Part shown: in pieces, positions 5,124 through 41,721 of the stretch
Position numbering within the stretch: position 1 is the stretch's first letter
How the letters are laid out: each line of letters opens with the position of its first letter
Assembly (NCBI GenBank): GCA_003635315.1
Contig: PYJD01000031.1
Location: 1-64,000 of the forward strand
From: Candidatus Poribacteria bacterium
GTDB lineage: Bacteria; Poribacteria; WGA-4E; WGA-3G
Length of the DNA: 64,000 nt
Reading direction: 5' to 3'
Notes under the pieces: generated by a model
The model's database searches: none
Told to the model about the DNA's origin: nothing
Seen by the model: only the letters and a program-made list of their open reading frames with translations
Position numbers and translations under genes: made by a program

Positions 5124-6998
5124 TTACCACAAAAGTATAGTACCGTCGTGACTCCCACTTGCTATAGTTTTACCATCCGGACTGAATGATACCTCCGATA
5201 CAGCAGCATTATGTCCTGTTAGTGTAAGGATGTGTTCACCGTTTTTTACATTCCACAAACGGATCTCTTTCCTACCTCCACTTGCGAGGGTTTTTCCATT
5301 CGGACTAAACGATACACTGTGGCTATAACTCGTATGACCTGTGAATGTGCGTATGTGAGTGCCAGTATTTGTATTCCACAAGCGGATGGTATGGTCCACA
5401 CTCCCACTTGCAAGGGTTTTACCATCCGGACTGAACGATACACTAAGGACATGTTTCGTATGCCCAGTTAAGGTACGGATGTGTATACCAGTATTTGCGT
5501 TCCACAAGCGTATGGTGTCGTCTCTACTTCCACTTGCAAGGGTGTTCCCATCCGGACTGAATGATACACTGGTGACATCTTTCGTATGACCTGTAAGGGT
5601 GCGGAAGTGATCACCAGTTTTTGCATTCCATAACCGGATGGTTACATCATCACTTCCACTTGCGAGGGTGTTCCCATCCGGACTAAACGATATACTCCTG
5701 ACATAATCCGTATGTCCTGTGAGGGTATGTATCTGTTCCCCGGTTTTTGTATTCCACAAGCGGATAGCGTGACTGCGGTTAAGACTCCCACTTGCAAGGG
5801 TTTTACCATCCGGACTGAACACTACACTATTTACAAAGAGCATATTTCCTGATAGGGTACGGATGTGAGTACGAGTTTTTGTGTTCCACAAGCGGATGGT
5901 GCCGTCTCCATTTCCACTTGCGATAGTGTTCCCATCTGGACTGAACGCTACACTGTCTACAAAAAACGTATGTCCTTTGAAGGTGTTTAAGTGGGTCCCA
6001 GTATTTGCGAAACATATGCGGATTGTGCCGTCCATACTCCCACTTGCGAGGGTTTTACCATCCGGACTGAATACTACTTTGTGGATATAACTCGTATGCC
6101 CTGTGACGGTTCGGATGAGTTTGCCTGTTTTTACGTTCCATATGCGGATTGTGCCGTACGTATCCCCACTTGCGAGGGTTTTACCATCCGGACTGAATGA
6201 TACGCTAAAACCCGCAATTGGATCCTCATTGAGTGTACGTAGTTGTGTTCCAGTATTTGCGTTCCACAAGCGGATAGTGCCGTCCATACTCCCACTTGCG
6301 ACTATGTTTCCATCCGGACTGAACGATACGCTCATGACATGATTCGTATGTCCTGTTAGGGTTCGGATGAGTTTACCGGTTTTTGTATTCCACAATCGAA
6401 TAGTGCGGTCTAAACTTCCACTTGCGACAATGTTCCCATCCGGACTAAACGCTACACTTACTACATCATCTGTATGTCCTGTAAGTTTATGGATGTGTTT
6501 ACCTGTTTTTACGATCCACAGACGGAGGGTGTTGTCCTTACTTCCACTTGCTATAGTTTTCCCATCGGGACTAAACACCACCTTCATGACCGAATCCTTA
6601 TGATAGTTTAGGGTTCGGATGTGTGTACCAGTTCTTGTGTCCCTCAAAAGGATGAAGCGGTCATCACTTCCAGTTGCGATAGTGTTGCCATTCGGACTAA
6701 ACGCTACACTATATACATTACCCTTATGCCATTTAAACAGATCAAGCTCTTGTCCCGTATATGCACCATAGATCCAAATGCCCATAGAACTTGCAACGGC
6801 TAAACGTGTCCCGCCTGGTGAAAACTGTATTTCATTTATCAAACCTTTCCCCAGTCGTGCTTTAGCACCATCAGGTAGGTTCCATTGCGTTGAGTCTTGT
6901 GATGAGGTGTTCGGGGAATTTGAAATTATCACAAACACAACAACAACTGAAATGGTCGCAAACATAACAATTAAAATCAAAAGTACTTTGTTTTTCAT
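5124..6998 (-). CDS. Membrane-anchored WD40 protein with 14 repeats
   Basis: A 624-residue protein. Residues 5-27 form one hydrophobic segment (signal anchor), followed by a short linker and then WD40 repeats to the last residue. I count 14 units of about 42 residues with the pattern xFSPDGKTLASGSxDxTIRLW and ending TGxHIRTLTGH. Fourteen units fit two seven-bladed propellers. It probably acts as a scaffold outside the cytoplasmic membrane, with no catalytic domain seen. Repeat units are similar at the DNA level (126-base period), which indicates expansion by unequal recombination. AAAGGAAG about 10 bases before the ATG is the ribosome site. Confidence 0.88.
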   Translation of the reverse strand: MKNKVLLILIVMFATISVVVVFVIISNSPNTSSQDSTQWNLPDGAKARLGKGLINEIQFSPGGTRLAVASSMGIWIYGAYTGQELDLFKWHKGNVYSVAFSPNGNTIATGSDDRFILLRDTRTGTHIRTLNYHKDSVMKVVFSPDGKTIASGSKDNTLRLWIVKTGKHIHKLTGHTDDVVSVAFSPDGNIVASGSLDRTIRLWNTKTGKLIRTLTGHTNHVMSVSFSPDGNIVASGSMDGTIRLWNANTGTQLRTLNEDPIAGFSVSFSPDGKTLASGDTYGTIRIWNVKTGKLIRTVTGHTSYIHKVVFSPDGKTLASGSMDGTIRICFANTGTHLNTFKGHTFFVDSVAFSPDGNTIASGNGDGTIRLWNTKTRTHIRTLSGNMLFVNSVVFSPDGKTLASGSLNRSHAIRLWNTKTGEQIHTLTGHTDYVRSISFSPDGNTLASGSDDVTIRLWNAKTGDHFRTLTGHTKDVTSVSFSPDGNTLASGSRDDTIRLWNANTGIHIRTLTGHTKHVLSVSFSPDGKTLASGSVDHTIRLWNTNTGTHIRTFTGHTSYSHSVSFSPNGKTLASGGRKEIRLWNVKNGEHILTLTGHNAAVSEVSFSPDGKTIASGSHDGTILLW

Positions 6999-7099
6999 AA
7001 TAGAATCGCTTCCTTTGATAAAGCGAAAGGTACCGCTTCAGAATCACATCTCTCCTTACTGTCTAAACCACAAAATACGGCATATGTTGTAATGGAATT

Positions 7100-7212
7100 A
7101 TACCATATCTATTAATTCTTGTTGCATGATCTAATTTAAAAATGATGCGGTATGTAGCACAAAATGCCAGTTTATGCTATATCAGAAAGACATTTTTCAT
7201 CAGAAGTGGTGT
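7100..7212. repeat. 113-bp inverted-repeat element, copy B
   Basis: Left end ATACCATATCT (7100-7110) and right end AGAAGTGGTGT (7202-7212) are imperfect inverted repeats. The interior contains TGTAGCACAAAATGCCAGTTTATGCTA, the degenerate hairpin core shared with copies at 32564 and 38286, which have the same total length. The element has no coding capacity. Confidence 0.6.
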
Positions 7213-7241
7213 ACCTATTGATCAGACTTAATTATAAAATA

Positions 7242-7270
7242 GAAAGGGTAGGTTATCAACCTACCCTTTC
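7242..7270 (-). terminator. Strong 13-bp stem hairpin, terminator-like
   Basis: GAAAGGGTAGGTT (7242-7254), loop ATC, AACCTACCCTTTC (7258-7270): a perfect 13-bp stem. Read on the minus strand it is followed by CTATTTTATAATT, a weak T-rich tail. It lies about 200 bases past the small gene at 7472-7675 and could end that transcript. Confidence 0.5.
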
Positions 7271-7362
7271 AATCTGTATTTAGTATTATAGGGATTTATT
7301 TATAATCAGACACTTCATCTGTAAGAGTAATCTCCGAATTGTGATGAACTTTGGAAACAAAC

Positions 7363-7434
7363 GGGAATCGGAGTTCCTTCGTACAGAAAATTGTATTCAA
7401 GAAGAATCGGGAATCGGAGTTCCCTCCTACAGAA
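7363..7434. repeat. Two direct copies of a GGGAATCGGAGTTCC intergenic repeat
   Basis: GGGAATCGGAGTTCCTTCGT plus ACAGAA (7363-7388) recurs as GGGAATCGGAGTTCCCTCCT plus ACAGAA (7409-7434), 46 bases apart. The core is itself nearly palindromic (GGAA...TTCC). There are only two copies, so this is not a CRISPR array. With copy B and the hairpin at 7242 it accounts for most of the 470-base gap 6999-7471. Confidence 0.6.
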
Positions 7435-7471
7435 TAGATGTGTCGAAGTAATTGTTTAAGTTGCTCTTTAA

Positions 7472-7675
7472 TTATTGATTTACGCGACTATTAATTTCAA
7501 TATGATTTGCAAAATGATCACATATATATGAAAGATTGTCAATGAATTGTTCCCAGCGGAATTCCTCGTCCTTTGCTTTTACCGCTGCAAAATACAAGGC
7601 TATTTCATAGTAATCTAAATCCTTGTCCTGCTTCAATTGTGTTACATCAGATTTTACTTCACTGTCGGCAGACAT
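7472..7675 (-). CDS. Small hypothetical protein, 67 residues
   Basis: An acidic, soluble 67-residue protein (starts MSADSEVKSDVTQLKQDKDL) with no family I recognise. TTTTAGGAGTATATT places a clear Shine-Dalgarno (AGGAG) 7 bases before the ATG, which is the main argument that it is real. It has aromatic and charged residues spread as in a small helical protein (YYEIALYFAAVKAKDEEF). No neighbouring gene on the same strand gives a functional hint. Confidence 0.55.
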   Translation of the reverse strand: MSADSEVKSDVTQLKQDKDLDYYEIALYFAAVKAKDEEFRWEQFIDNLSYICDHFANHIEINSRVNQ

Positions 7676-7760
7676 AATATACTCCTAAAATTATGGTTTT
7701 CTCTGCAATTATCTATAACGCATAGATAGAAAGAAAGTTTCATATAAATTTATACTATCG

Positions 7761-7895
7761 GTGTCAATTTAGTGATTACATGTCCCCGTAGGGAATCAAA
7801 ACAGCATGCTGTGGAGTTGAATCGAAGGTAAAACCAACATCTCCAGGATATAAAGCGTCATATATTGGATTTCGTTCCTCAACTCAACCTACAGG
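7761..7895. repeat. Dispersed intergenic repeat, family 2, copy 1
   Basis: Begins GTGTCAATTTAGTGATTACA and ends near GGATTTCGTTCCTCAACTCA and ACCTACAGG. The same opening and closing phrases occur at 20802-21024, and the closing phrase again inside 22689-22748. It has no coding capacity and fills most of the 341-base gap before glnS. Confidence 0.55.
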
Positions 7896-7964
7896 AGAAA
7901 TAGAAATCCCCAAATATGATTGGATAATCCTTAATATGACGACTATGTCTGCGTTTTGATATTT

Positions 7965-7993
7965 TTGACATTATTTCATTTTGAAAGTATAAT
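7965..7993 (+). promoter_or_regulatory. Consensus sigma-70 promoter of glnS-gltX
   Basis: TTGACA (7965-7970), a 17-base spacer and TATAAT (7988-7993) match the sigma-70 consensus exactly, with optimal spacing. Transcription should begin near 8000, leaving a leader of less than 20 bases. Confidence 0.8.
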
Positions 7994-8016
7994 ATATTCT
8001 CATGTAGGAGGTGTGC

Positions 8017-9753
8017 ATGAAGCAGTCTAATTCTAATCTGGATAGTCAAAAAAACCGAGATACCAACCAAGAAAATTCTAATAATACTTCCCAATCAAAT
8101 TTTATCCGACAAGCCATTGATGAAGATTTAACAAATAATAGATTTGATGGTAGGGTACACACACGATTCCCACCTGAACCGAGCGGATACCTACATATAG
8201 GACATGCAAAAGCCATCTGTATTAGTTTCGGCATAGCCGAAGATTATAACGGTCTTTATAATTTACGGTTTGATGATAGTAATCCGATTACAGAAGAGAG
8301 TGAATATGTAGAAGCGATAAAGAGAGATGTACATTGGCTTGGATTCGATTGGAAAGAACGTGAGTATTATGCCTCCGATTATTTTGAGACACTCTATGAA
8401 TATGCGGCTAAACTGATAGAAAAAGGTAAAGCCTTTGTCTGCGATCTTACACCTGATGAGATGAAAACATACCGCGGTACTTTAGTGACTCCCGGAAAAG
8501 ATAGTCCTTATCGAAACCGGACTACAGAGGAAAATCTTACACTTTTTCAAGGGATGCGTGATGGTGAATTTCCTGATGGCTCACGAACACTCCGAGCCAA
8601 AATTGACATGTCAAGTCCTAATTTAAATATGCGCGATCCAGTCATGTATCGTGTGCTGCGTTCTCATCATTACCGTCATGGAGACAATTGGTGTATATAT
8701 CCTACCTACGACTTCACGCACGGACAATCCGATTCCATAGAAGGTGTTACGCATTCACTCTGTGATGTTCAATTTGAGGACCATCGTCCATTATACGATT
8801 GGTTTTTAGAATCGTTAGAGATTTACCAGCCCCGGCAAATTGAATTTGCTCGTTTAAATTTAACCTATACTGTACTCGGTAAACGCAAGCTTAAGATTCT
8901 CGTTGAAGACAGTCATGTCAACGGATGGGATGATCCAAGACTCCCTACACTTGCTGGAATGCGTCGTCGTGGTTATACACCTGAAGCTATTCGTGATTTC
9001 TGTAACCGTATTGGCGTATCTAAAGCAGATAACCTGATTGAGTTAGGTCAACTTGAGTATTCAATACGAAACGATCTAAACTTACGCGCTCCACGCGTGA
9101 TGGCAGTTCTCAATCCAGTCAAAGTTATCATTGATAACTATCCTGAAAAACAGGTGGAAATGCTTGATGCAGAGAATAATCCTGAAGATGAAAGTGCTGG
9201 TACAAGAGAAATCCCTTTTTCAAGAGAGATTTATATTGAAAGAGATGATTTCATGGAAGATCCACCACGTAAATTCTATCGGTTAGCCCCTGGAAGAGAA
9301 GTACGTCTAAAACACGCCTACTATATAACTTGTCAGGATGTTATTAAAGATGATCAAACAGGAGAAATTGTAGAAATACATTGTACTTATGATCCAGATA
9401 CAAAAGGTGGTTGGTCGGATGATGGTCGTCGAGTACAAGGAACTTTACATTGGGTTTCAGTAGATCAAGCCGTGGATGCTGAAGTTCGTTTATACGATAC
9501 TCTCTTTACAGAACGTGAACCAGAGAATGCTGCTGAAGGAACTGATTGGATACAATTTCTTAATCCTAACTCATTAGAAATCTTGGAAAATTGCAAGGTT
9601 GAACCAGGTTTGTTAAATTCAGAATCAGAAAGCCGGTATCAGTTTTTGCGAACCGGTTATTTCTGTGTTGATTCAGACTCAACACCAGATAAACTGGTCT
9701 TCAATCGGACAGTTCCTCTTCGTGATAGCTGGGCAAAAATGCAAAAAGGATAG
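8017..9753 (+). CDS. glnS: Glutamine--tRNA ligase
   Basis: A class I synthetase that charges tRNA-Gln with glutamine. The product shows the HIGH-containing stretch [16 protein letters not shown] near residues 50-66, the GlnRS-type [20 protein letters not shown] core, and LGKRKL in place of the KMSKS loop (GlnRS usually has MSKRKL). The C-terminal half holds the two beta-barrel anticodon-binding domains. I choose the ATG at 8017 (578 residues) because AGGAGG (8006-8011) sits 5 bases before it. The in-frame GTG at 8011 overlaps that site. gltX begins 1 base after its stop. Confidence 0.95.
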
Positions 9754-9754
9754 T

Positions 9755-11260
9755 ATGCACAATACTGTGAATGATACGAAAGCAAATGTAAATGGTGAAG
9801 TAAGAGTTCGAATGGCACCATCCCCTACTGGATTTTTGCATATTGGGGGTGCGAGAACTGCCTTATTTAATTGGTTGTATGCCAAACACCATCATGGTAA
9901 GTTTATTCTACGTATAGACGATACCGATACTGCCCGTTCTACCGATGAGTCTATGCATGAGATATATGAAGCCATGCAATGGTTAGGATTGGATTGGGAT
10001 GAAGGTGGCGAAAAGGACGGACCCTATGGACCTTATCTACAATCTAAGCGAAAGGATATTTACGATAGATATGTGAAAGAACTTCTTGCGTCTGAGAAAG
10101 CATATCATTGCTATTGTACCCAAGAAGAATTAGAAGGTATTCGAACAGAGGCGCGTGAAGCAAAATCCGTACGTTCTTATGATGGTCGATGTAGGGAACT
10201 ATCATCAGAAGTCATAGAAAAATATATTGCTGAGGGTAGAAAACCTACCATACGGATTAAAATGCCTGATACGCCTATTCTTGTAGATGACCTAATACTT
10301 GGTTCACGTAACATAGATCCTGCTACTCTTGAGGATGAAGTGATTGTCCGATTTAATGGGATGCCGAACTACAATCTAACATCCATTATTGATGATGTTG
10401 AGATGAAGATAACACATGTCATTAGAGGTACAGAACATCTCAACAATACCCCCAAACAGATTGCAATTGCGAATGCTCTCGAACTCTCACTCCCAAAATT
10501 TGCCCACATACCTTTAGTCCTTGATGATACGGGTAGGAAACTAAGCAAAAGGCATCACGGTGATTTAGTAGCTGTTAACCGTTATCGAGAACAAGGCTAT
10601 CTCCCCCAAGCCATGTTAAACTTTGTAGCAAGACTCGGTTGGTCTTATGACGATAAACAGGAAATTTTTTCTCTTGAAGAATTAATTGATAAATTCGATC
10701 TTGCACGTGTAGGGAAAAGTGGCAGTGTGTTTGATATTAAAAAATTAGAATGGCTTAATTCACACTATATCAACGAACTTGATGTATCAACTCGTACAGA
10801 TGCTGTTATCCCATACTGGCAAGCAGAAGGATTAATTGACACTATAGAAAATCGAGCAAAACTTGAAAAGATCGTAGAAGCAGTCGGTGAACGTCTTAAC
10901 ACACTCAAGGATATTGTGCCGCAAACAAGCTATTTCTTCACTCAGGATTTTGAATATGATCCAAAGGCAACGAAGAAATGGTGGGGGAACTCAGATGAAA
11001 AGAAACAGAAAACATGTGAGATTCTAACTAATTTATCACAGATCTTAGCAGATACTCCTGATTTTGATTTAGAAACAATTGAATCTTCAGTCTGGAAATA
11101 CACAGATGAAAATGATATCAAACGTGTTGCAGCCATGCAATCGATGCGAATTGCATTGACTGGACTATCCTTTGGTCCAAGTTTGTTTGATATTGTTGTA
11201 TTGCTCGGGAGAGAGGAAGTATTGGAAAGACTTCATAGAGCAGTAGTATCATTAACCTAA
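9755..11260 (+). CDS. gltX: Glutamate--tRNA ligase
   Basis: A class I synthetase that charges tRNA-Glu. Visible are APSPTGFLHIGGARTALFNW (HIGH variant), the zinc-knuckle-like region CYCTQEELEGI with a later C, and the KMSKS variant KLSKRHHGDLVAV, followed by the helical anticodon-binding domain (501 residues in total). The start at 9755 follows the glnS stop TAG (9751-9753) and AAAAAGGATAGT. An in-frame codon at 9665 would overlap glnS by about 90 bases and is unlikely. It shares the glnS promoter. Confidence 0.95.
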   Translation: MHNTVNDTKANVNGEVRVRMAPSPTGFLHIGGARTALFNWLYAKHHHGKFILRIDDTDTARSTDESMHEIYEAMQWLGLDWDEGGEKDGPYGPYLQSKRKDIYDRYVKELLASEKAYHCYCTQEELEGIRTEAREAKSVRSYDGRCRELSSEVIEKYIAEGRKPTIRIKMPDTPILVDDLILGSRNIDPATLEDEVIVRFNGMPNYNLTSIIDDVEMKITHVIRGTEHLNNTPKQIAIANALELSLPKFAHIPLVLDDTGRKLSKRHHGDLVAVNRYREQGYLPQAMLNFVARLGWSYDDKQEIFSLEELIDKFDLARVGKSGSVFDIKKLEWLNSHYINELDVSTRTDAVIPYWQAEGLIDTIENRAKLEKIVEAVGERLNTLKDIVPQTSYFFTQDFEYDPKATKKWWGNSDEKKQKTCEILTNLSQILADTPDFDLETIESSVWKYTDENDIKRVAAMQSMRIALTGLSFGPSLFDIVVLLGREEVLERLHRAVVSLT

Positions 11261-32867: not shown

Positions 32868-33671
32868 TTAACGAAAACCGTGTTCTGTACGATGCCAATT
32901 TCTACCATGATCTGGATCACGGAATGGGATAGTCCTACCTAACAATTGTTTGAGGACATCACTTTCATTCATTAGTTCTTCATCAGTTAATTGTCGTGGC
33001 ATATCCTCTTGCGGATAGATGACAGATCGGTTATACATTCCAAGTAATCCTACCCGTGGAGAATCAGTATTATTTGGACGTGATTGATGCCAGATAGCTC
33101 CATTTGTAAACATAATGGAACCTTTTGGTGCTGTAGCCACAACACATTCCATACCTTCTGCTTCCCCAAACTCGGGACGTCTTAGGGTTTTATGTGATTC
33201 AGATATACATGCAGTAGCGCCATTCTCAACAGTAAAATCATCTAACATCCAGACAGTTTGTCCTGTTAGTGAACCAGCTGGAAAAGGAGATTGCATTGCC
33301 CAATATGGGTAATCAATATGCCATCCTCCTGCCGGTGCACCTGGTCCGACGACATTCGCTGTAAAAGTAGAAGCAATTACATCTTCTCCCAGCATGCGTT
33401 TCCATACTGCAATGACAGTTGGATGTTGTATAAAATATCTGAAGATAGGAGATTTACCAACAATTGCCCATACACGTCGAATCTTTCCATCTCCATAACT
33501 ATGATCCTGTCCGTTTTCTATATCTTCATCGATTAATTTCCATATCACCTCTCGTGCTTCATCTGCTTCTTCAGGAGAGATGACATTTTCGATTATATGG
33601 TATCCCAATTCCCGGAGATCGTGTTCAACATGATCAAGTCTTTCTGAGTCTAATGCTGATTTGATTTGCAT
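32868..33671 (-). CDS. Phytanoyl-CoA dioxygenase (PhyH)-family protein
   Basis: A 267-residue Fe(II)/2-oxoglutarate dioxygenase. The 2-His-1-carboxylate facial triad is visible as His118-x-Asp120 in GGWHIDYPYW and His195 in NGAIWHQSRPN, with Arg206 as the likely 2-oxoglutarate anchor. The conserved start GYHIIENVISPEEADEAREV fits the family. The substrate (a hydroxylated small molecule) is unknown. The epimerase gene ends 16 bases upstream on the same strand, so both may form a small-molecule modification unit. Confidence 0.85.
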   Translation of the reverse strand: MQIKSALDSERLDHVEHDLRELGYHIIENVISPEEADEAREVIWKLIDEDIENGQDHSYGDGKIRRVWAIVGKSPIFRYFIQHPTVIAVWKRMLGEDVIASTFTANVVGPGAPAGGWHIDYPYWAMQSPFPAGSLTGQTVWMLDDFTVENGATACISESHKTLRRPEFGEAEGMECVVATAPKGSIMFTNGAIWHQSRPNNTDSPRVGLLGMYNRSVIYPQEDMPRQLTDEELMNESDVLKQLLGRTIPFRDPDHGRNWHRTEHGFR

Positions 33672-33687
33672 GTCATTCCACCTTTAT

Positions 33688-34680
33688 CTACTTTATTCGT
33701 GGTAAGTTTCGAATTGTATCTATGATTCGATCTTCAACATCATCTGCATCACTATCTGGAATACGATTATGTTTATCCATCCATTCAATATTCTCTGCTA
33801 CGCTTTGTATGACAGGAATCTTTGGATTAAATTCAGGTATTACTGAAGCTAATTTTTGATGACTAAAAATCTGTGTATGTCCAAAATTACCCCTCAATCC
33901 ACTGAACCGCTCAGGAGAGATGGCAATAAGGGTTTCTTGAGAAACATGTACAATTTCAATGTCAACATCGAGAGCATTTGCTGCCGCTGTATGCCATTCA
34001 TCCCATGTTCTTGCTTGAGGATGAACGATATTGTATATCTGACCGAAACATTCCGATTTTCCAAGAATATCCGCAAATGCATCCCCAGCGTCTCGTGAAG
34101 CTAAAAATTGGAAATAGTTTAATCCATCCCCTGCAGATAGAATAGGTTTCCCTTTACGTATTCGATCTATCCAACTTCCATCTCCACCGACTTGTCGTAG
34201 AAGATTCATTCCAGGTCCGTGTGTATAGGATGGTTTGAAAATTGTAACCGGAAAACCATCTGTTCTATGTGCCTTTAATAACAAATTATCTGCATCTATT
34301 TTACCTAACCCATATCCTGATACTCCTTGTAGCGGTCCTGTTTCAGGTATGTTAATACCACTGAAAGGTGGTCCGTATGTCATGACAGTGGAACAATGAA
34401 TGAAGTGTCCGATTTTTCCTTTACAAGCTCTGAGTGCGGATGCAGCATCTTCAGCATTGAAACTAATCATGTCTATGACTGCATCCCAGTTCTCAGCGGC
34501 AACTTTGTTCTCGAAATCCTCACGGTTTTGTCTGTCTCCATGAATAATTCGAACATCTTTTGGTGGTGTGTCGACATGTTGTCCGCGATTAAATAATACG
34601 ACATCGTAATTCCGTTCGAGTAGGGCAGCAACGATGCCACGGCTGATATTCCCTGTTCCGCCGATGACTAATACTTTCAT
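33688..34680 (-). CDS. NAD-dependent epimerase/dehydratase (extended SDR)
   Basis: A 330-residue protein. The N-terminal VLVIGGTGNISRGIVAALL (GGTGxIS) binds NAD(P), and VVLFNRGQH follows. FIHCSTVMTYG with a downstream GYGLGKIDADN-type segment gives the S...YxxxK catalytic set. It probably modifies a nucleotide sugar or related compound. The ATG overlaps the stop of the upstream TaqI_C-like gene by 4 bases (34677-34680, ATGA), so translation may be coupled. A degraded copy of its first 248 bases lies at 35609-35856. Confidence 0.85.
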   Translation of the reverse strand: MKVLVIGGTGNISRGIVAALLERNYDVVLFNRGQHVDTPPKDVRIIHGDRQNREDFENKVAAENWDAVIDMISFNAEDAASALRACKGKIGHFIHCSTVMTYGPPFSGINIPETGPLQGVSGYGLGKIDADNLLLKAHRTDGFPVTIFKPSYTHGPGMNLLRQVGGDGSWIDRIRKGKPILSAGDGLNYFQFLASRDAGDAFADILGKSECFGQIYNIVHPQARTWDEWHTAAANALDVDIEIVHVSQETLIAISPERFSGLRGNFGHTQIFSHQKLASVIPEFNPKIPVIQSVAENIEWMDKHNRIPDSDADDVEDRIIDTIRNLPRIK

Positions 34681-34742
34681 TTGGATGTTTCCTCTTCGAT
34701 CAAATTTATTTCAGCTGGTGTAAGGTCGTATAGTTTGTATAT
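34433..34742. repeat. Direct repeat, left copy (epimerase start plus TaqI_C gene end)
   Basis: This stretch and 35609-35918 are aligned without gaps at a constant offset of 1176 bases. I count about 14 differences in the first 248 bases. Similarity then continues into the last ~60 bases of the TaqI_C-like genes and stops. The two copies flank the 302-residue gene. Confidence 0.85.
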
Positions 34743-35585
34743 AATTTCATTGATGCTATTCTCCAAAATCTGAACATTCGGATTTTCAGGATCTATTAGG
34801 ATTTTGTTAGTAATATCAATTAGTTCTGAATGCTCTGTTAATTCTTTATCAGACTGACAAATGATAGGAATACTCCCAATATTCTCTTTTGTAAAAATTA
34901 AATTTGGGTTATTTTCATATTTTCTAAACTTTTGCTTCGCATACCAACCCATAAGTGAACTATTCAAAATCGCTAATAGAGATAAGTCTTCAGTTGGAAT
35001 ATGATAATATGTGCCAAGAATATATCCATTAGATGTGTCATAAGTAGCTCTAATTGCATTTCCATTTAAAGGATATATTATTTTAGGTTGGTATATATGC
35101 GGATAATTCTCTGGTTTCGGTTCCCACATAGCAACTTCCCAATAGAATTTCCCTTTACTTCCTTTAATTCGACTCTTTAATTTATCTTTGAATTGGAATA
35201 GATGTTGTCTAATGGCAGGATATGTTGTTGCGAACAATTCTTCAGCAATAGATTCATCATCCTGATTAGACCAGTGCCATTGTTTATGTTTAGAGGAAGT
35301 AATCCAAAGAATATAAGCAGATTCTATTTTCCATCTCTTTTTCCGTGGTGAATATACATAAGGAATAAATAAGTTTTTGCTATCCGGATCTTGTTGTATT
35401 AGATCTTGATATTTTTCATTGTCTATAACAAAGGCTTTTACACGACCTGGATTCACACCAGTGTAAATTTTTACCTGATTATTTAATGGTTCACCTATGT
35501 TGCTTAATTTTGCAAGCAGTTCCTCCGATTGAGGTGAAACATCTGTCGTATTAATTGAATTGTTCGTATTCATATTTGGTACCAT
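34677..35585 (-). CDS. Stand-alone TaqI_C-type specificity protein
   Basis: A 302-residue protein made of one module like the C-terminal DNA-recognition domain of TaqI/Eco57I-type enzymes. Motifs are LLAKLSNIGEPLNNQVKIYT, AFVIDNEKY, RRWK-like KKRWKIESAYILWI, ESIAEELFATTYPAI, GKFYWEVAMWE, QPKIIYPLNG, LLAILNSSLMGWYAKQKF and the close YKLYDLTPAEI. No methylase (NPPY) or nuclease motif is present. The same module occurs twice in the next gene upstream (35853-38216). Ribosome signal is weak, and ATGs at 35585 and 35573 are both possible. The stop overlaps the epimerase ATG. It may act as a targeting subunit, which is inference. Confidence 0.68.
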   Translation of the reverse strand: MVPNMNTNNSINTTDVSPQSEELLAKLSNIGEPLNNQVKIYTGVNPGRVKAFVIDNEKYQDLIQQDPDSKNLFIPYVYSPRKKRWKIESAYILWITSSKHKQWHWSNQDDESIAEELFATTYPAIRQHLFQFKDKLKSRIKGSKGKFYWEVAMWEPKPENYPHIYQPKIIYPLNGNAIRATYDTSNGYILGTYYHIPTEDLSLLAILNSSLMGWYAKQKFRKYENNPNLIFTKENIGSIPIICQSDKELTEHSELIDITNKILIDPENPNVQILENSINEIIYKLYDLTPAEINLIEEETSK

Positions 35586-35608
35586 CTTATATTTACCCTT
35601 TTAACTAC

Positions 35609-35856
35609 AGTGCGGATGCAGCATCTTCAGCATTGAAACTAATCATGTCTATGACTGCATCCCAGTTTTCAGCGGCAACTTTGTTCTCAAAATCCTCACG
35701 GTTTTGTCTGTCTCCATGTATTATTCGAACATCTTGTGGTGGTGAGTCGACATGTTGTCCACGATTAAATAATACGACATCGTAATTCCGTTCGAGTAGT
35801 GCAGCAACGATGCCACGGCTGATATTTCCTGATTATCCAATGACTAATACTTTCAT
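35609..35856 (-). pseudogene. Duplicated 5' fragment of the epimerase gene
   Basis: Reading from the ATG at 35856 gives MKVLVIG, a TAA at codon 8, then SGNISRGIVAALLERNYDVV and VIDMISFNAEDAASAL, then a stop. This is the N-terminal quarter of the epimerase at 33688-34680, about 94% identical in DNA. It is truncated where homology to the original ends, so it cannot make the enzyme. It keeps the ATGA overlap with the end of the TaqI_C-like gene upstream (35853-35856), exactly as the intact gene does. Confidence 0.88.
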
Positions 35857-38216
35857 TTGGATGTTTCCTCTTCGATCAGATCTATTTCAGCCGGTGTAAG
35901 GTCATATAGTTTGTATACTAACTGGTCAATCTCCTCTTCAAGTTCGGGTATAAGAGCATTATTTGGATCTTCAATAATTAATTGGACAATTTCGAATATG
36001 TCATTTCTCTCCTCAGTTCTGTCAGGAATAGGATAGTTCTTCATATTAGATTTCTTGAAAGTTAACCAATTCTTGTTTTTATATTTATAATTCGCCTGAT
36101 ATTGAAATCCAGCATACCATTGAAATACATTACTGTTTAATATTCCTAACAGTACGAGATCTGTTGTTGGAATGATACAAGTCCAATAGAATAATATGGG
36201 AGATTCAGTTGTATCATAACCCGCGCCTATTGAAAGACCAGCTGCAGGATACACAATTTTTGGTTGGTACAATCTTGGATATTCTTCCTTGGTAATTTCC
36301 TTAATTGAGAGTTCCCAATAAAAGCGTCCAATACCACTTTTATCTATTAACTCATTCTTGTATTGGAAAATATGTTGACTAATTGATGGATACATTTCAG
36401 AAAAAATTTTCTCTGCACTTTCTTCGTTATTTGCATCTGACCATGGCCAGAGTTTGAATTCACTGTTAGAAATATTGATTAAATATCTCCATTCAGGCTT
36501 CCATTTACAATTATTAGGCATATTGACTACTGGAATGATCAGTTCGTCGTTCTTTGAATCTGCATTAATGAATTGATGACGCTTTTCTTCATCTATTACA
36601 AAGGCTTTATTTAGTGGGGGTGTGATGCCAGGTCCACCATACATCTCAGCATGATTTATCAAAGGAGTTCCATTTTTTTGTATTTTTGCCAGAAGTTTGT
36701 CAATATGTGCGTGTTTTCTTGTGGAATCATTTTCTAAACCAATCGAATTTGTTTGAGGAACATCATCAGTATTAGGAGTCTTTGAAATTCCTTTCATTTC
36801 CTTGGTCTCTTGACTCTCAGAATCATCGTGACGTGGAGAATCAAATCCATCTGATAACTTATTTCTTTTTACTGTTTCTTCGTGTTTGTTTAATTTACTC
36901 AGAGAATTCTTAACATAATCAATTTCTTCATCAGTAAGTTGGTACATTTTATACACCAACATATCTATTTTATCTTCTAAGACAGATATATCATTATTGT
37001 CATTTGTATTGAGTAACTCATGAACCAAATCTGTGATCAGTTCCTTAATTGATTGATTAGTTGAAATTGGAACTATTCTTAATTTCGACTTATTTAAACA
37101 TCCACCCCCTTTAGTTTTAAATTTAGTATGTGCGTACCAATTGAATAGAGAACTGTTAAGAATGCCGAGTATGGATAAATCCGATGTTTGAATACAATAT
37201 ACATACGGGTTAATTACAATGGCATCCGATTTATCATAGAATGCCATAATCGGAGGTTTATCGTAAATAGTAATTTTTGGACCTTGAAATTTTTCATCAT
37301 ATTCTTGAAAAGGTAATTCCCAGTAGAATTCACCTCTACTCATTTCATTCCTATTCTTAATCTCATCAGTATACCTGCTTAGATGCTTACTTATCGTTGG
37401 GTATGTCTCTTGGAATATATTCTCTGCGATTGATTCACTAATTGCATTAGACCATTGCCAATTCTTGCTTTTACTACTTGGTATCCATATAATATTTTTA
37501 TAAGATGGTTTCCATCGTCGTTCCTGGTGCTTTCCAATACCTAACTTGATTATATCTTCACAATCTTGATGTTCGGTTATCAACCTATTACGTATCTCAT
37601 CGTTAATGATAAAAGCCGGATTATAACCTGTTGTTATCCCATTGTTTATATCACATAGTTCACCTAATGGCGTTCCTATCATCTCCAATTTTACTAATAA
37701 GTCCTCTGATGTAATTTGTAATTCCTCTTGCTGATGGATAAAAATATCAGGAATTACATGATTAGTATTTGTACTAATTGTTACCTTTTCTTGAGTCCAA
37801 GCAAGAATGTATAATTCTGTATCAGAACTATCACTGTTTTTCGCATCCTTTATATAAGCAATAGCAAATGGTTGATAGTTTTCAGTTAGACAAATAAAAC
37901 GAAAATCCTCATGATTCTTACCCTGAAGTCGAAGAGTATTAGAGATAGCATGAAGAATACTTGAATAACCTAAATCATTTAAAAAACGTATGATGAGAAT
38001 CCCTGATGGTTGTCCTGGAGTCAACGATAGTTCCTTACAATCTAATACCTGTTTAGAATTTGATTCATTAAGACCAAGAGCGTAATTTGAGTATTTCGAT
38101 GAGATGTCTTCCAGTGCTACACCATTAGGTATAGGTATATTTAACTTTTCTTTCAAGAACTCAATTAGAGATGATTCATTTTTGATTTCATGCAAATCTT
38201 TAAGTGAAATATTCAT
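35853..38216 (-). CDS. Tandem two-module TaqI_C-type specificity protein
   Basis: A 787-residue protein. Residues 1-170 form an N-terminal domain I do not recognise (GILIIRFLNDLGYSSILHAI, FRFICLTENYQPFAIAYIKD). Residues about 172-442 and 506-787 are two copies of the recognition module, joined by a polar linker. Shared motifs are a GTPL turn, AFxI, RWKP, ESIAENIFQETYPTISKHL / ESAEKIFSEMYPSISQHIFQ, GRFYWEL, ILNSSLFNWYA / ILNSNVFQWYA and YKMYQLTDEEI / YKLYDLTPAEI. No NPPY or PD-DExK motif is seen. In type IIG restriction enzymes this module reads the DNA target, so a methylase-free double module is unusual. It may work with the methylase at 39252-40259. Confidence 0.68.
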   Translation of the reverse strand: MNISLKDLHEIKNESSLIEFLKEKLNIPIPNGVALEDISSKYSNYALGLNESNSKQVLDCKELSLTPGQPSGILIIRFLNDLGYSSILHAISNTLRLQGKNHEDFRFICLTENYQPFAIAYIKDAKNSDSSDTELYILAWTQEKVTISTNTNHVIPDIFIHQQEELQITSEDLLVKLEMIGTPLGELCDINNGITTGYNPAFIINDEIRNRLITEHQDCEDIIKLGIGKHQERRWKPSYKNIIWIPSSKSKNWQWSNAISESIAENIFQETYPTISKHLSRYTDEIKNRNEMSRGEFYWELPFQEYDEKFQGPKITIYDKPPIMAFYDKSDAIVINPYVYCIQTSDLSILGILNSSLFNWYAHTKFKTKGGGCLNKSKLRIVPISTNQSIKELITDLVHELLNTNDNNDISVLEDKIDMLVYKMYQLTDEEIDYVKNSLSKLNKHEETVKRNKLSDGFDSPRHDDSESQETKEMKGISKTPNTDDVPQTNSIGLENDSTRKHAHIDKLLAKIQKNGTPLINHAEMYGGPGITPPLNKAFVIDEEKRHQFINADSKNDELIIPVVNMPNNCKWKPEWRYLINISNSEFKLWPWSDANNEESAEKIFSEMYPSISQHIFQYKNELIDKSGIGRFYWELSIKEITKEEYPRLYQPKIVYPAAGLSIGAGYDTTESPILFYWTCIIPTTDLVLLGILNSNVFQWYAGFQYQANYKYKNKNWLTFKKSNMKNYPIPDRTEERNDIFEIVQLIIEDPNNALIPELEEEIDQLVYKLYDLTPAEIDLIEEETSK

Positions 38217-38577
38217 AATATTGTTTAACTACCTTGATTCATGATATATATATAGGACTAAATCCATACCAACATACTACAAGATTTTCGATTTCTATAT
38301 ATTTTTGGTCCATTACCTATTGTAAGAAGTGAAGGGGAATGTAGCCCAAACTGGAAGTTTATTTTATAAAAGAGAGAAATATACATAAGAATTGGTATTA
38401 TTTACGATATCATTCAAGAGATTATCTACAAAAAGTTAGTATACCAATACACCTATAATCACTTAATACTATTGTAGGAAATAAAGAATAGCTTACTTTG
38501 AGAAACTTTACACTTGTAGATATGTAATCTTGTTTATTTTTATTTATTATTTTAAATACTTTGAAGTAAATTTTTAG
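38217..38577. other. 361-base gene-free gap inside the RM-like island
   Basis: Between the endonuclease candidate and the two-module protein there is no gene. The gap holds element copy C (38286-38398) and otherwise AT-rich sequence. A separate promoter for the downstream genes could lie here, but none stands out. Confidence 0.5.
38286..38398. repeat. 113-bp inverted-repeat element, copy C
   Basis: Right end AGAATTGGTAT (38388-38398), left end eroded to TTTCGATTTCT (38286-38296). The interior CCATTACCTATTGTAAGAAG and GAATGTAGCCCAAACTGGAA match copy A closely in order and spacing, and total length is the same. Confidence 0.6.
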
Positions 38578-39255
38578 CTAATTTTGGTAATTACTAATAA
38601 GTGTTCTGATATTACGAGGAACATCACCAATTGGACTAGCAAAACTATAGGGTTTTTGGTTTCTAACCTGTGCAAGAAGTTTAGATAAGTTTTGCTCTGT
38701 ATAATATGGACCATCACATATTACGAAAAGAGCAATATCATTTTCTATACATTTTTGAAAAGCCATAAGAAGCCTTATCAACTCATCACGTTGATGATCT
38801 TGAGCACCCCCAGCTTCTCGAGTGACTTTATGTGCTGCCAAACACCTAATTGATGTATCTCCTGCAATCCACATAAAGTCAATTGATTTACTCCCAGATG
38901 GCTTATTCCCATTAATTATTTCACCACTTTCATTTATGTATACAGCATTTTTGCCACTCCTTGGTAAGACTTTAAATGAACGTACTAAGTCAGGGAACAT
39001 TCTCAGATACTTTTCTGCCTCTTTCTCTTCAAATCCTGTTTTTTTAGCATCTTTTGCAAAACAACAAGCAAACATAAAATCCTCATGGATTTTCTGAGAA
39101 ACTATTTCTTCATCAAAATCAAAATTACTGCAGAAAGTACGTATCCTACGCATGAGTCCTGCATCTTGACCTACCAATAAATCTCTTACTTCAGCCCCAT
39201 GTCTTATCCATAATTCTTTTTCAATCTTATCGTAGTCAGGTGGAGGAATTATCAT
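38578..39255 (-). CDS. Candidate type II restriction endonuclease
   Basis: A 225-residue protein of unknown family. The segment SIDFMW (Asp126), a strand RCLAAHK (Lys143) and REAGGAQDHQRDEL resemble a diverged PD-(D/E)xK core followed by the GGxQDxQ helix seen in several type II nucleases. The (D/E) of the motif is replaced here (A-H-K), so this is only suggestive. Its ATG overlaps the methylase stop by 4 bases (39252-39255), the classic coupling of restriction and modification genes. That context is the strongest argument for the call. Both are on the minus strand with the methylase first. Confidence 0.5.
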   Translation of the reverse strand: MIIPPPDYDKIEKELWIRHGAEVRDLLVGQDAGLMRRIRTFCSNFDFDEEIVSQKIHEDFMFACCFAKDAKKTGFEEKEAEKYLRMFPDLVRSFKVLPRSGKNAVYINESGEIINGNKPSGSKSIDFMWIAGDTSIRCLAAHKVTREAGGAQDHQRDELIRLLMAFQKCIENDIALFVICDGPYYTEQNLSKLLAQVRNQKPYSFASPIGDVPRNIRTLISNYQN

Positions 39256-40259
39256 ATATAATCCAATTTCATTTCTATTTGAGAATTGTCAACATCAATT
39301 ATTGATCTTGCCATTGCCCAATCTAAACGGCGTCGGTAACAGCCATCTTTACGTAAACCTTTAAATGCTGTTAAGAAAACATCAAAAGTCTCCTCACGAA
39401 TTATTGATAAACGTTCATTAAGAATATCAAACTCCACATTTCCTGGAACTCTAATTTTGGTGATTGAACGGCATTGGTTTCGGATCTGATAATCCCCCAA
39501 TTCAGAAGGATGACAAAACCGAATTGAAGCTGATACAGTATTATCAATTGCATATAGTCCAAGATTTCCTTCAGGTTCATTAAATCTAATTTCTCTATTT
39601 TGTGATACAGGAGGTAAATGTCTCCGTAGTTCAGAATATCTACCAAGGAGTTGATTATTACGCCATAAATTAACATCTGAACTTATTTCTGGACCGAATA
39701 ACGCTAATCCTACTGGATGTTCTGTATCCTCAAACATGTAGCTTGGATTCATACTTGTCGTAGATTGTGTGATTCCATCCTGTGTATTAGGAACCAAAGA
39801 AATAAAATCACTTAATCTATCTTGAAATAACCCGCATCGAATAAATGCTTCTGGAATAATTGCTGTCACCCATTCGCAATACGACAAGCACTTCTCCAAT
39901 GCATATTTATAAAGATCATCATAATCTGTAGCATTTGGAAATGGCAAACCACGTCGTGTTGCTGAGTTTCGTGCTAACCAAGGAGGATTTGTTATACACA
40001 CATTAAAACCTTTAGGAAAATCGGCAAGTGTATCTCGTTGTAAAACACCTTCTGCCCCAGGTTTGATATCGTAAAATACCCATTCCCCAGATTCTAAATT
40101 AGCCAACTTTATTAATTGGGGTATATCTTTCGCCCCTGCAAAGGGTTCCAATATTTTATTTTCTTTAAGGTTTGCCCTGTCAGTCCACAATTTGAATGGT
40201 GTTAATTGAAAAGGGTTCCCGCGTGTATAATACTGACCATTTGCACGTTTAATGTCCAT
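39252..40259 (-). CDS. N6-adenine DNA methyltransferase
   Basis: A 335-residue methylase that would transfer a methyl group from SAM to adenine in DNA. GQYYTRGNPF (8-17) is motif X, EPFAG (38-42) is motif I (SAM site), VFYDIKPG is motif II, and TNPPWLARN (Asn91-Pro-Pro-Trp) is catalytic motif IV. No obvious target-recognition domain of the TaqI_C type is attached, although the C-terminal 130 residues could recognise DNA. Overlap with the nuclease candidate and nearness to the TaqI_C proteins suggest a modification role in this island. Confidence 0.82.
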   Translation of the reverse strand: MDIKRANGQYYTRGNPFQLTPFKLWTDRANLKENKILEPFAGAKDIPQLIKLANLESGEWVFYDIKPGAEGVLQRDTLADFPKGFNVCITNPPWLARNSATRRGLPFPNATDYDDLYKYALEKCLSYCEWVTAIIPEAFIRCGLFQDRLSDFISLVPNTQDGITQSTTSMNPSYMFEDTEHPVGLALFGPEISSDVNLWRNNQLLGRYSELRRHLPPVSQNREIRFNEPEGNLGLYAIDNTVSASIRFCHPSELGDYQIRNQCRSITKIRVPGNVEFDILNERLSIIREETFDVFLTAFKGLRKDGCYRRRLDWAMARSIIDVDNSQIEMKLDYI

Positions 40260-40719
40260 TATCTTTCCATATGTTTATTTTAGAGTCAATTTTACTGATA
40301 TATATATTATCTTCTCAAGCGTTGGAATATGCAGTAATAATAGAAGAACTAAATAAGAAAATTTATTCTACAGGATTATACTTAGAAAAAATATACCTAT
40401 AGATATCTTAGAATAATATTAACGCTATGAACTAAGAATAATATACAGACAACAATAATTTACACAGATTAGTGAGAATTAGCAAGAAAATTAGATATAA
40501 GACATCTTTGAATACGGTATGTATATTGAAATAATTTGACATATGGAATAATCATAAGGTAGTATTTCATGGATACAGAATGTTGAAAATAAGTCTCAAT
40601 GTCATGAAATTCACTTAATAAACATATTTCATAGAATTCTGTCTATAGTTTGAAATGATTCAGTATATTGTTGATGTATTGATGAACTTGATTTTCATTC
40701 AAATAAAAAGGAGTTAATT
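40260..40719 (+). promoter_or_regulatory. 460-base divergent intergenic region with weak promoter candidate
   Basis: It separates the leftward RM-like island from the rightward ABC genes, so it should hold promoters in both directions. TTGACA (40536-40541) with TAGTAT (40560-40565), 18-base spacing, is the best plus-strand match and lies about 155 bases before the ABC gene. I see nothing else of note. Confidence 0.3.
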
Positions 40720-41721
40720 ATGGTAAAAATGCATATGTATATTGTCATACATATTTTGGTTATGTTTTTAATCTTAGGATCAACTCAAGCAGAGACGATC
40801 ACTCTTTATTCTGGACGTGGTAAAAGTCTTGTTGAACCTATAATATTACAGTTCGAAAAAGAGACTGGGATAGAGGTAGAAGTTAGTTTCGCCAATACAA
40901 CCCAATTAGCCTCTAAACTTATGACTGAAGGCGAAAAGAGTCCAGCAGATGTATTTTGGGCACAAGATGCTGGAGCACTTGGTGCGGTGAGTAAGGAAGG
41001 ACTCTTTGCTAAACTTCCAAAGAAGATGCTCTCTAAAGTACCTGAAACATTTCGACATAAAGACCGTTTATGGGTAGCCACAAGTGGAAGAGCACGTGTA
41101 TTGGCATATTCCTCTGAACGGGTAAATAAAGATAAACTTCCAGATAGTATTTTTGATTTGACCAAATCGAAGTGGAAGGGTAAAGTTGGATGGGCTCCGC
41201 TAAACGCTTCCTTTCAAGCCTTTGTAACGGCAATGCGAGAACAGGTTGGGGATGACCGTACCGAAGACTGGCTTCGTGATATGAAAAAGAATGGAACTAT
41301 TGCATATCCTAAGAATACACCTATAATAGAAGCACTTGCAGCAGGTGAGATAGATCTTGGATTACCAAACCATTATTACCTATTTCGCTTTAAGAAAAGC
41401 AATTCAGAATATCCTGTATCCCAGACATTCTTTAAAACAAAAGATCCTGGGAATCTTGTAAATGTTGCTGGAATAGGACTATTAAAGAATAGTAAAAACG
41501 AGAAAACTGCCCTTAAGTTGATTGAGTATCTACTTTCCTCTAAAGCCCAACAATACTTCGTTAGTGAAGTATTTGAATACCCAGTCATTGATGGCGTGAT
41601 ACCTAACACCAATTTGATTCCTTTGGATGAATTGCTAAAAATAGTACCGAAATTTGATTTAAATGAAATGGATGATATTGATGGAACAGTGAAACTTCTT
41701 CGTCGTGTCGGTATAATGTAG
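40720..41721 (+). CDS. Fe(III)-type ABC transporter substrate-binding protein
   Basis: A 333-residue exported binding protein. After the signal peptide (to about TQAETI) the mature start ITLYSGRGKSLVEPIILQFE and VSFANTTQLASKLMTEGEKS are the FbpA/FutA-type pattern, and ADVFWAQDAGALGAV follows. Adjacent tyrosines in LPNHYYLFRFKKS fit the paired-Tyr iron ligand. It likely delivers Fe3+ to the permease encoded 12 bases later. AAAAAGGAG, 6 bases before the ATG, is a good ribosome site. Confidence 0.85.
   Translation: MVKMHMYIVIHILVMFLILGSTQAETITLYSGRGKSLVEPIILQFEKETGIEVEVSFANTTQLASKLMTEGEKSPADVFWAQDAGALGAVSKEGLFAKLPKKMLSKVPETFRHKDRLWVATSGRARVLAYSSERVNKDKLPDSIFDLTKSKWKGKVGWAPLNASFQAFVTAMREQVGDDRTEDWLRDMKKNGTIAYPKNTPIIEALAAGEIDLGLPNHYYLFRFKKSNSEYPVSQTFFKTKDPGNLVNVAGIGLLKNSKNEKTALKLIEYLLSSKAQQYFVSEVFEYPVIDGVIPNTNLIPLDELLKIVPKFDLNEMDDIDGTVKLLRRVGIM

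Follow-up and report, generated by a model that had tools for sequence, protein, structure and literature searches.

Methylase-free target-recognition proteins with reassorting modules beside a predicted adenine methylase in Poribacteria

To our knowledge, TaqI_C-type target-recognition domains (TRDs) sit in methylases or in Type IIG enzymes. What do such domains do in a protein that has no methylase? This question is raised by a locus of Candidatus Poribacteria, found in a stretch of 64,000 nucleotides (contig PYJD01000031.1 of assembly GCA_003635315.1, positions 1 to 64,000), here called the window. Four open reading frames (ORFs) are concerned: the predicted adenine methylase MT335, the nuclease candidate RE225 and two recognition proteins of 787 and 302 residues, P787 and P302, with three modules (T1-T3). 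All four were found where an initial annotation, made from the window alone, had placed them, on the reverse strand.

Recognition modules without a catalytic domain

The modules T1-T3 are target-recognition domains of the TaqI_C/BseCI type. Pfam TaqI_C (PF12950) matched above its curated cut-off on two stretches of P787 (2e-10) and on one of P302 (3.1e-10). A profile of 14 related proteins matched the recognition domain of M.BseCI in the PDB (2.3e-11). For the N-terminal domain of P787 together with T1, an AlphaFold2 model with a mean pLDDT of 85.4 and a pTM of 0.62 was obtained from a 32-row alignment. Foldseek gave CamA (1.1e-11), M.BseCI, MmeI, PglX/BrxX and M.TaqI among the matches listed, and all 50 listed were methylases or restriction-modification (RM) enzymes. 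The best match reached a TM score by query of about 0.45 with a large root-mean-square deviation, which we ascribe to query and targets being multi-domain. Profile and structure searches thus both place the modules as TaqI_C-like, in agreement with the two modules annotated in the larger protein and the third in the smaller one. The only recognition-domain families matching in Pfam were TaqI_C and, below its cut-off, MmeI_TRD; none was HsdS-like. The best stretches listed for the PADLOC IIG models fall in the C-terminal TRD part of those models.

The annotated lack of NPPY and of a nuclease motif was confirmed. On inspection, neither P787 nor P302 contains an NPPY/F/W motif. No methylase-domain match was obtained for them in Pfam and no nuclease family match in the profile libraries.

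The N-terminal domain of P787 (N domain) had been described as unique. This does not hold, as a domain of about 165 residues of this kind also heads proteins of about 1050 amino acids with N domain, methylase and TRD (N-headed methylases) in other Poribacteria and occurs in a small ORF of its own. A nuclease function of the N domain was not supported, since neither an invariant PD-(D/E)XK triad nor an invariant D...(D/E)xK pattern was present in a 16-row alignment. The PDB profile search gave no meaningful match from which to assign a fold class, and the domain may have a degenerate nuclease fold. Foldseek placed methylases or RM proteins at the top among the matches named; we read these as deriving from the TRD part of the model. 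At L154:965-7942, L185 and L188 an operon was observed that consists of a helicase-like protein of about 1010 amino acids, a small separate N-domain protein and an N-headed methylase. The helicase-like protein, presumably of the PLD/SNF2 type, has a DEAH motif in L186; homologues occur in 40 of 84 phylum genomes at E 1e-50, many of them merely about 30% identical.

The distribution of the N domain was examined in these 84 genomes, 58 of which form the family, and 44 matches in 33 genomes were found. Half of them, 22 from 16 genomes and three genera, combine N domain and TRD as P787 does and are called N-TRD in the following. All 22 occupy one slot, adjoining MT335/a lipoprotein-like gene (LIP) or an epimerase-like gene (EPIM). 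Loci that show a single side of the slot reach the end of their contig within about 0.8 kb; the exception is G001, whose two N-TRD genes lie on separate contigs (L036, L037). The initial annotation had considered that homologues might always carry a methylase in the same frame; 20 of the 22 at this locus carry none. The copy of G077 is cut by the contig end, and one copy of G019 is fused in frame behind a methylase-TRD chain (1681 amino acids). The remaining 22 matches fall in reading frames of the N-headed methylase kind, 294-1123 amino acids long; part of these were opened, and those opened carry methylase sequence. Uncut N-TRD ORFs of 449-826 amino acids occur in all three genera, and the arrangement of P787, one N domain and two TRDs, is also found in L041. 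Most loci hold a single N-TRD gene, in several cases with its own start 10-25 bp after LIP.

The gene order that recurs in relatives is MT335 - (RE225) - LIP - (slot) - EPIM - PhyH-like - LDH-like. The labels lipoprotein-like, epimerase-like, PhyH-like and LDH-like are what we take these genes to be from their sequences. MT335 lies upstream of N-TRD in the window, L034, L035, L037-L042, L044, L107 and L115. LIP, a conserved gene of about 100 codons, precedes the slot on its MT335 side (L040:10648-10959 and 40 further loci; PGDGKHT..PAGFFWGIWHGWIAP). It has no Pfam match and was not found in the window. In 40 fetched loci MT335 and the epimerase start are present on one stretch; G019, with two stretches, was counted apart. 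Nine of these slots contain N-TRD, one contains a TRD only (L124) and three contain C-terminal TRD relics (L103, L104, L138). Genes with an AAA_35-type start, considered below, lie in 12, and the remaining slots are short or hold other sequence. In L100 (8335-9933) the slot gene encodes an AAA_35-type ATPase of about 530 amino acids with a weak, sub-threshold C-terminal match to PDDEXK_9.

A scan of genome contigs with short peptide patterns, which may miss distant methylase-free relatives, gave 36 loci. Of these, 33 are from Poribacteria, including close relatives of the window proteins. The methylase-free N-TRD loci (L141-L153) and a contig-cut TRD end (L167) all belong to this locus and to Poribacteria; the others are methylase-TRD proteins or contig-end fragments. 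A viral scan with an N+TRD profile yielded two loci, and in each the ORF also encodes a methylase. P787 itself had no match in the phage collection at E 0.001. Fifteen plasmid records matched it, none over 80% of the query; two of the 15, both Nostoc loci, were opened, and there NPPY and the TRD stand in one chain, so that these are methylase-TRD proteins.

Selection and module turnover

The N-TRD genes are intact, under purifying selection and recurrent at one locus in three genera. Ratios of non-synonymous to synonymous substitutions (dN/dS, Nei-Gojobori) were 0.14-0.39 for eight pairs, with 0.14 at dS 0.45 for L037/L040.

In one array and between close relatives the recognition modules differ or reassort, while the neighbouring genes are conserved. 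For L038/L039 the identity is 97% in EPIM, 88% in MT335 and 78% in the N domain, but 48% in the TRD. The array of G019, on a contig of 5.0 Mb, comprises five copies with six TRDs, one of them in the methylase chain. Between its copies a1 and a2 the N domain is shared, with 80-100% identity in six blocks of 40, whereas the TRD is not (38-59%). Conversely, a2 and a4 have much of the TRD in common, with three blocks at 95-100% and three at 61-79%, and differ in the N domain (38-60% past the first block). The first block (88-100%) and the C-terminal block (85-92%) are alike in all five copies.

In the window a direct repeat of 300 bp with 94% identity was detected at 34433-34732 and 35609-35908, the copies being 1176 bp apart. 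The repeat, which a recombination scar forms together with the end of the T2 gene and which the initial annotation does not mention, shows the region between P787 and P302 to be a broken copy of the epimerase start. As the junction of TRD end and epimerase start is duplicated, the third module, P302, presumably arrived by an event that duplicated this junction. A similar epimerase-LIP scar is present in L107. At the two loci inspected, a GAGGAG-like stretch encoded by the TRD ends (..EEE..) lies immediately upstream of the epimerase ATG, and in the window the stop of P302 overlaps the EPIM start (ATGA). The GAGGAG-like stretch may explain the persistence of the junction and of the relics. Inverted repeats of at least 20 bp were absent from 33600-41000. 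The features of the locus are given in Table 1.

Table 1 Features of the recognition locus in the window (positions of the forward strand)
Feature	Position	Strand	Basis
MT335, predicted adenine methylase	39252..40259	-	ORF list, Pfam, PHROG, visible motifs
RE225, 225-residue nuclease candidate, ATGA-coupled to MT335	38578..39255	-	ORF list, conserved residues; nuclease assignment inferred
P787, methylase-free protein with N domain and two TaqI_C-type recognition modules	35853..38216	-	ORF list, Pfam
N domain of P787, residues 1-165, modelled as alpha/beta	37722..38216	-	AlphaFold2 model, alignment
Recognition module T1 of P787, residues 166-450	36867..37721	-	AlphaFold2 model, structural matches
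Linker T1-T2 of P787, residues 451-497	36726..36866	-	Sequence
Recognition module T2 of P787, residues 498-787	35856..36725	-	Pfam, sequence
Recombination scar, disrupted copy of the epimerase gene start	35609..35856	-	Direct-repeat analysis
P302, recognition module T3 without N domain	34677..35585	-	ORF list, Pfam
EPIM, presumed epimerase-like gene, conserved downstream border of the slot	33688..34680	-	ORF list, gene order in relatives

Candidate partners and possible roles

MT335 has NPPW at residues 91-94, not NPPY. We take GQYYT to be motif X-like, EPFAGA to be motif I-like and NPPW to be motif IV, which would put the protein in the gamma-order class. The Pfam Eco57I methylase family matched below its cut-off (1.3e-4; 22.6 vs 25.3 bits), and PHROG 18657, 'DNA methyltransferase', matched with 1.8e-39. 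These matches and the visible motifs support the N6-adenine methylase annotated at this locus. An AlphaFold2 model of MT335 had a mean pLDDT of 32.6 and was left unused. Homologues are present in 57 of the 84 phylum genomes (56 of the 58 in the family). They also occur on one Magnetospirillum plasmid and in 17 phage records, of which 16 belong to cyanophages.

The adjoining RE225 overlaps MT335 by 4 bp (ATGA). The coupling is thus as annotated, and the nuclease role of RE225 is a putative one. Its homologues, full-length in nine of the 84 genomes and a fragment in one more, conserve SxDF...AHKxTRE..GxQD(H/N)Q. There was no near-cut-off match in Pfam, no match in NCBIfam, PADLOC, PHROGs or the plasmid and phage collections, and no meaningful one in the PDB. 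A weak K..GGxQD(N/H) stretch is shared with 'restriction endonuclease II' of cyanophage P-SSM4 (BLASTP E 0.027; hhalign probability 3.7%), and the similarity to S-H38 is weaker still. In P-SSM4 (L181:2279-3924) an MT335 homologue overlaps this annotated endonuclease gene by one base; the pair, an apparent RM pair borne by a phage, adjoins a second methylase annotated dam. All nine full-length RE225 copies adjoin MT335, and N-TRD is present at the same locus in three of them (window, L040, L042). MT335 and RE225 are most likely an ordinary Type II pair separate from N-TRD, because six of the nine RE225 loci lack N-TRD and because of the overlapping pair in P-SSM4. The RE225-linked copies are dispersed over the MT335 tree, in which 25 of 55 inner branches have good support and the bootstrap is unsettled. 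Repeated loss of the nuclease most likely made MT335 a near-core solitary methylase. A second MT335+RE225 pair was observed in G011 (L112, G011:C51, reverse-strand positions 6411-10565), followed by an ORF of 570 amino acids with a GPNGSGKS ATPase-like start.

For the N-TRD proteins we tentatively favour a role as trans-acting specificity proteins with exchangeable modules. Each would bind a particular DNA sequence and lend specificity in trans to a catalytic partner, and the exchange of a module would change the target. Lending specificity is the simplest reading because the modules turn over, selection maintains the protein and catalysis is absent. The first candidate for the partner would be the adjacent MT335, the sole predicted DNA-modifying enzyme that recurs beside N-TRD; that it is indeed the partner is possible, but doubtful. 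With its two modules, P787 could direct a pair of methylases to a bipartite site, in the manner of HsdS and BcgI-type specificity (S) subunits. A bolder proposal, which we regard as a rather uncertain one, is a new class of trans-acting specificity subunit that is built from TaqI_C rather than HsdS and would retarget a near-core solitary adenine methylase. P787 would then address a two-part site, and array members would give several motifs per cell or the rapid gain of new ones.

Several observations weigh against a specificity role of this kind. N-TRD occurs in 16 of the 58 family genomes vs 56 for MT335, which is thus often found without it; this is indirect evidence against an MT335 that depends on N-TRD for activity. 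The co-occurrence of the two has p=1 in these genomes, a value that is uninformative because MT335 is near-universal. MT335 is conserved in the C-terminal region as well (0.84-0.91 over residues 176-322), which one would expect if the enzyme had a recognition part of its own. Its phage homologues stem from the collection in which P787 is unmatched. LIP and EPIM are not restriction genes, and the adjacency of N-TRD may therefore only reflect a fixed chromosomal neighbourhood. In 12 of the 40 slots the start of an unrelated AAA_35-type gene was found, two of them together with N-TRD or a relic; of these genes only that of L100 was domain-scanned, the others being judged by their similar start. 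Furthermore, the identity of the N domain exceeds the best TRD identity in just 59 of 120 ORF pairs. L037/L040 is the single pair of the eight with a dN/dS that is both low and far from saturation. L042/L043, the second-least saturated (dS 0.58), has the highest value (0.39), and the other six are near saturation (dS 1.0-1.2).

The next candidate role, somewhat improbable in our view, is that of partnerless sequence-specific DNA-binding proteins, which would, for instance, shield sites from restriction or regulate genes and would change the bound sites by module exchange. The lack of a catalytic motif in P787 and P302 and of an invariant triad in the N domain would suit such proteins as well, and so would the purifying selection. 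Most N-TRD loci lack RE225, and no significant co-distribution with a partner was detected (4 genomes with RE225 vs 2.5 expected, p 0.24), which also counts against the specificity role. In contrast, the structural matches listed all belong to methylases or RM enzymes.

N-TRD proteins are unlikely to work with an unlinked Type IIG/PglX-like enzyme, be it as its partners or as alternative specificities; one such enzyme would be the N-headed methylase of the helicase-like operons. Those methylases do contain the same N and TRD domains, and in the G019 array a full methylase-TRD is fused in frame to N-TRD. However, N-TRD and N-headed methylase coincide in 3 genomes vs 5.2 expected among 58, a count that left out the truncated gene of G027, and on this ground the N-headed Type IIG/helicase operon found no support as a general partner. 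Neither an N-headed methylase nor, at E 1e-50, such a helicase is present in the genome of the window, which is 90.2% complete. Another methylase, of about 1007-1043 amino acids at G000:C9, is a candidate partner.

Still less probable is an origin of the N-TRD genes as left-overs in an insertion slot, i.e. remnants of Type IIG genes minus the methylase part. Relics of C-terminal TRDs do lie beside EPIM, short methylase-free TRD ORFs or fragments occur elsewhere (L189, L193, L195), and the GAGGAG-like stretch supplied by the TRD end may preserve relics. Against it stand the dN/dS values, the long uncut ORFs in three genera and the ordered array of G019. A shufflon-like store of silent cassettes that recombine into one expressed recognition gene would fit the mosaic array and the scars in the window and L107, but is very improbable in view of the single-gene loci, the absent inverted repeats and the genes' own starts after LIP.

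In the initial annotation a split system was proposed, in which separate recognition subunits target a shared methylase or nuclease. The first part stands: methylase-free recognition proteins are real, recurrent and selected rather than a single broken gene, and their modules differ or reassort in the manner of specificity modules. That they target the neighbouring enzymes is no more than possible, given the unequal distribution of MT335 and N-TRD and the independence of the MT335+RE225 pair. For the decoy role proposed as an alternative, no evidence specifically favouring it was obtained.

Comparison with known systems

The findings suggest that, in these uncultured sponge-symbiont bacteria, recognition-only proteins beside a conserved predicted methylase retarget another enzyme. 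If true, the TaqI_C class would include a natural case of detachable specificity, and the exchange of a module of about 280 residues would give a symbiont new targets for methylation or defence. Such a role predicts an outcome visible in long-read methylation data from sponges.

In the open-licence papers of PubMed Central, no literature on methylase-free TaqI_C proteins or on this Poribacteria locus was found. The TRD family and separate S subunits are already known; S-like proteins that are of the TaqI_C type, lack a methylase and lie in a swapping slot were not found there. The Type IIG/IIL enzymes (Eco57I, MmeI) and PglX/BrxX have TRD fold and family in common with N-TRD, whose chain differs in lacking a methylase or nuclease domain. 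The gamma methylases M.BseCI, CamA and M.TaqI share the TaqI_C recognition domain. In these enzymes it is fused to a methylase, in N-TRD to the N domain.

According to the passages available from PMC3874165, separate S subunits serve the gamma methylases M.AhdI, M.BsaBI, M.PshAI, M.BstXI (with a two-TRD S) and BcgI. These Type 1 1/2 methylases and the Type IIB enzyme BcgI combine a separate recognition subunit of one or two TRDs with a gamma methylase, as here. Their S subunits are described there as Type I-like and, for BcgI, as required, whereas N-TRD belongs to the TaqI_C type, has an N domain of another kind and is missing from many genomes that have MT335. A methylase-free piece of a Type IIG enzyme is HVO_A0006 of Haloferax volcanii, whose deletion changed adenine methylation, as stated in excerpts of PMC4389544. 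That piece is the N-terminal nuclease part, N-TRD the TRD part. In RM genes of Helicobacter pylori TRDs exchange by recombination, in the portion of PMC7379913 considered here within Type I, III and IIG genes, and N-TRD swaps its TRDs likewise.

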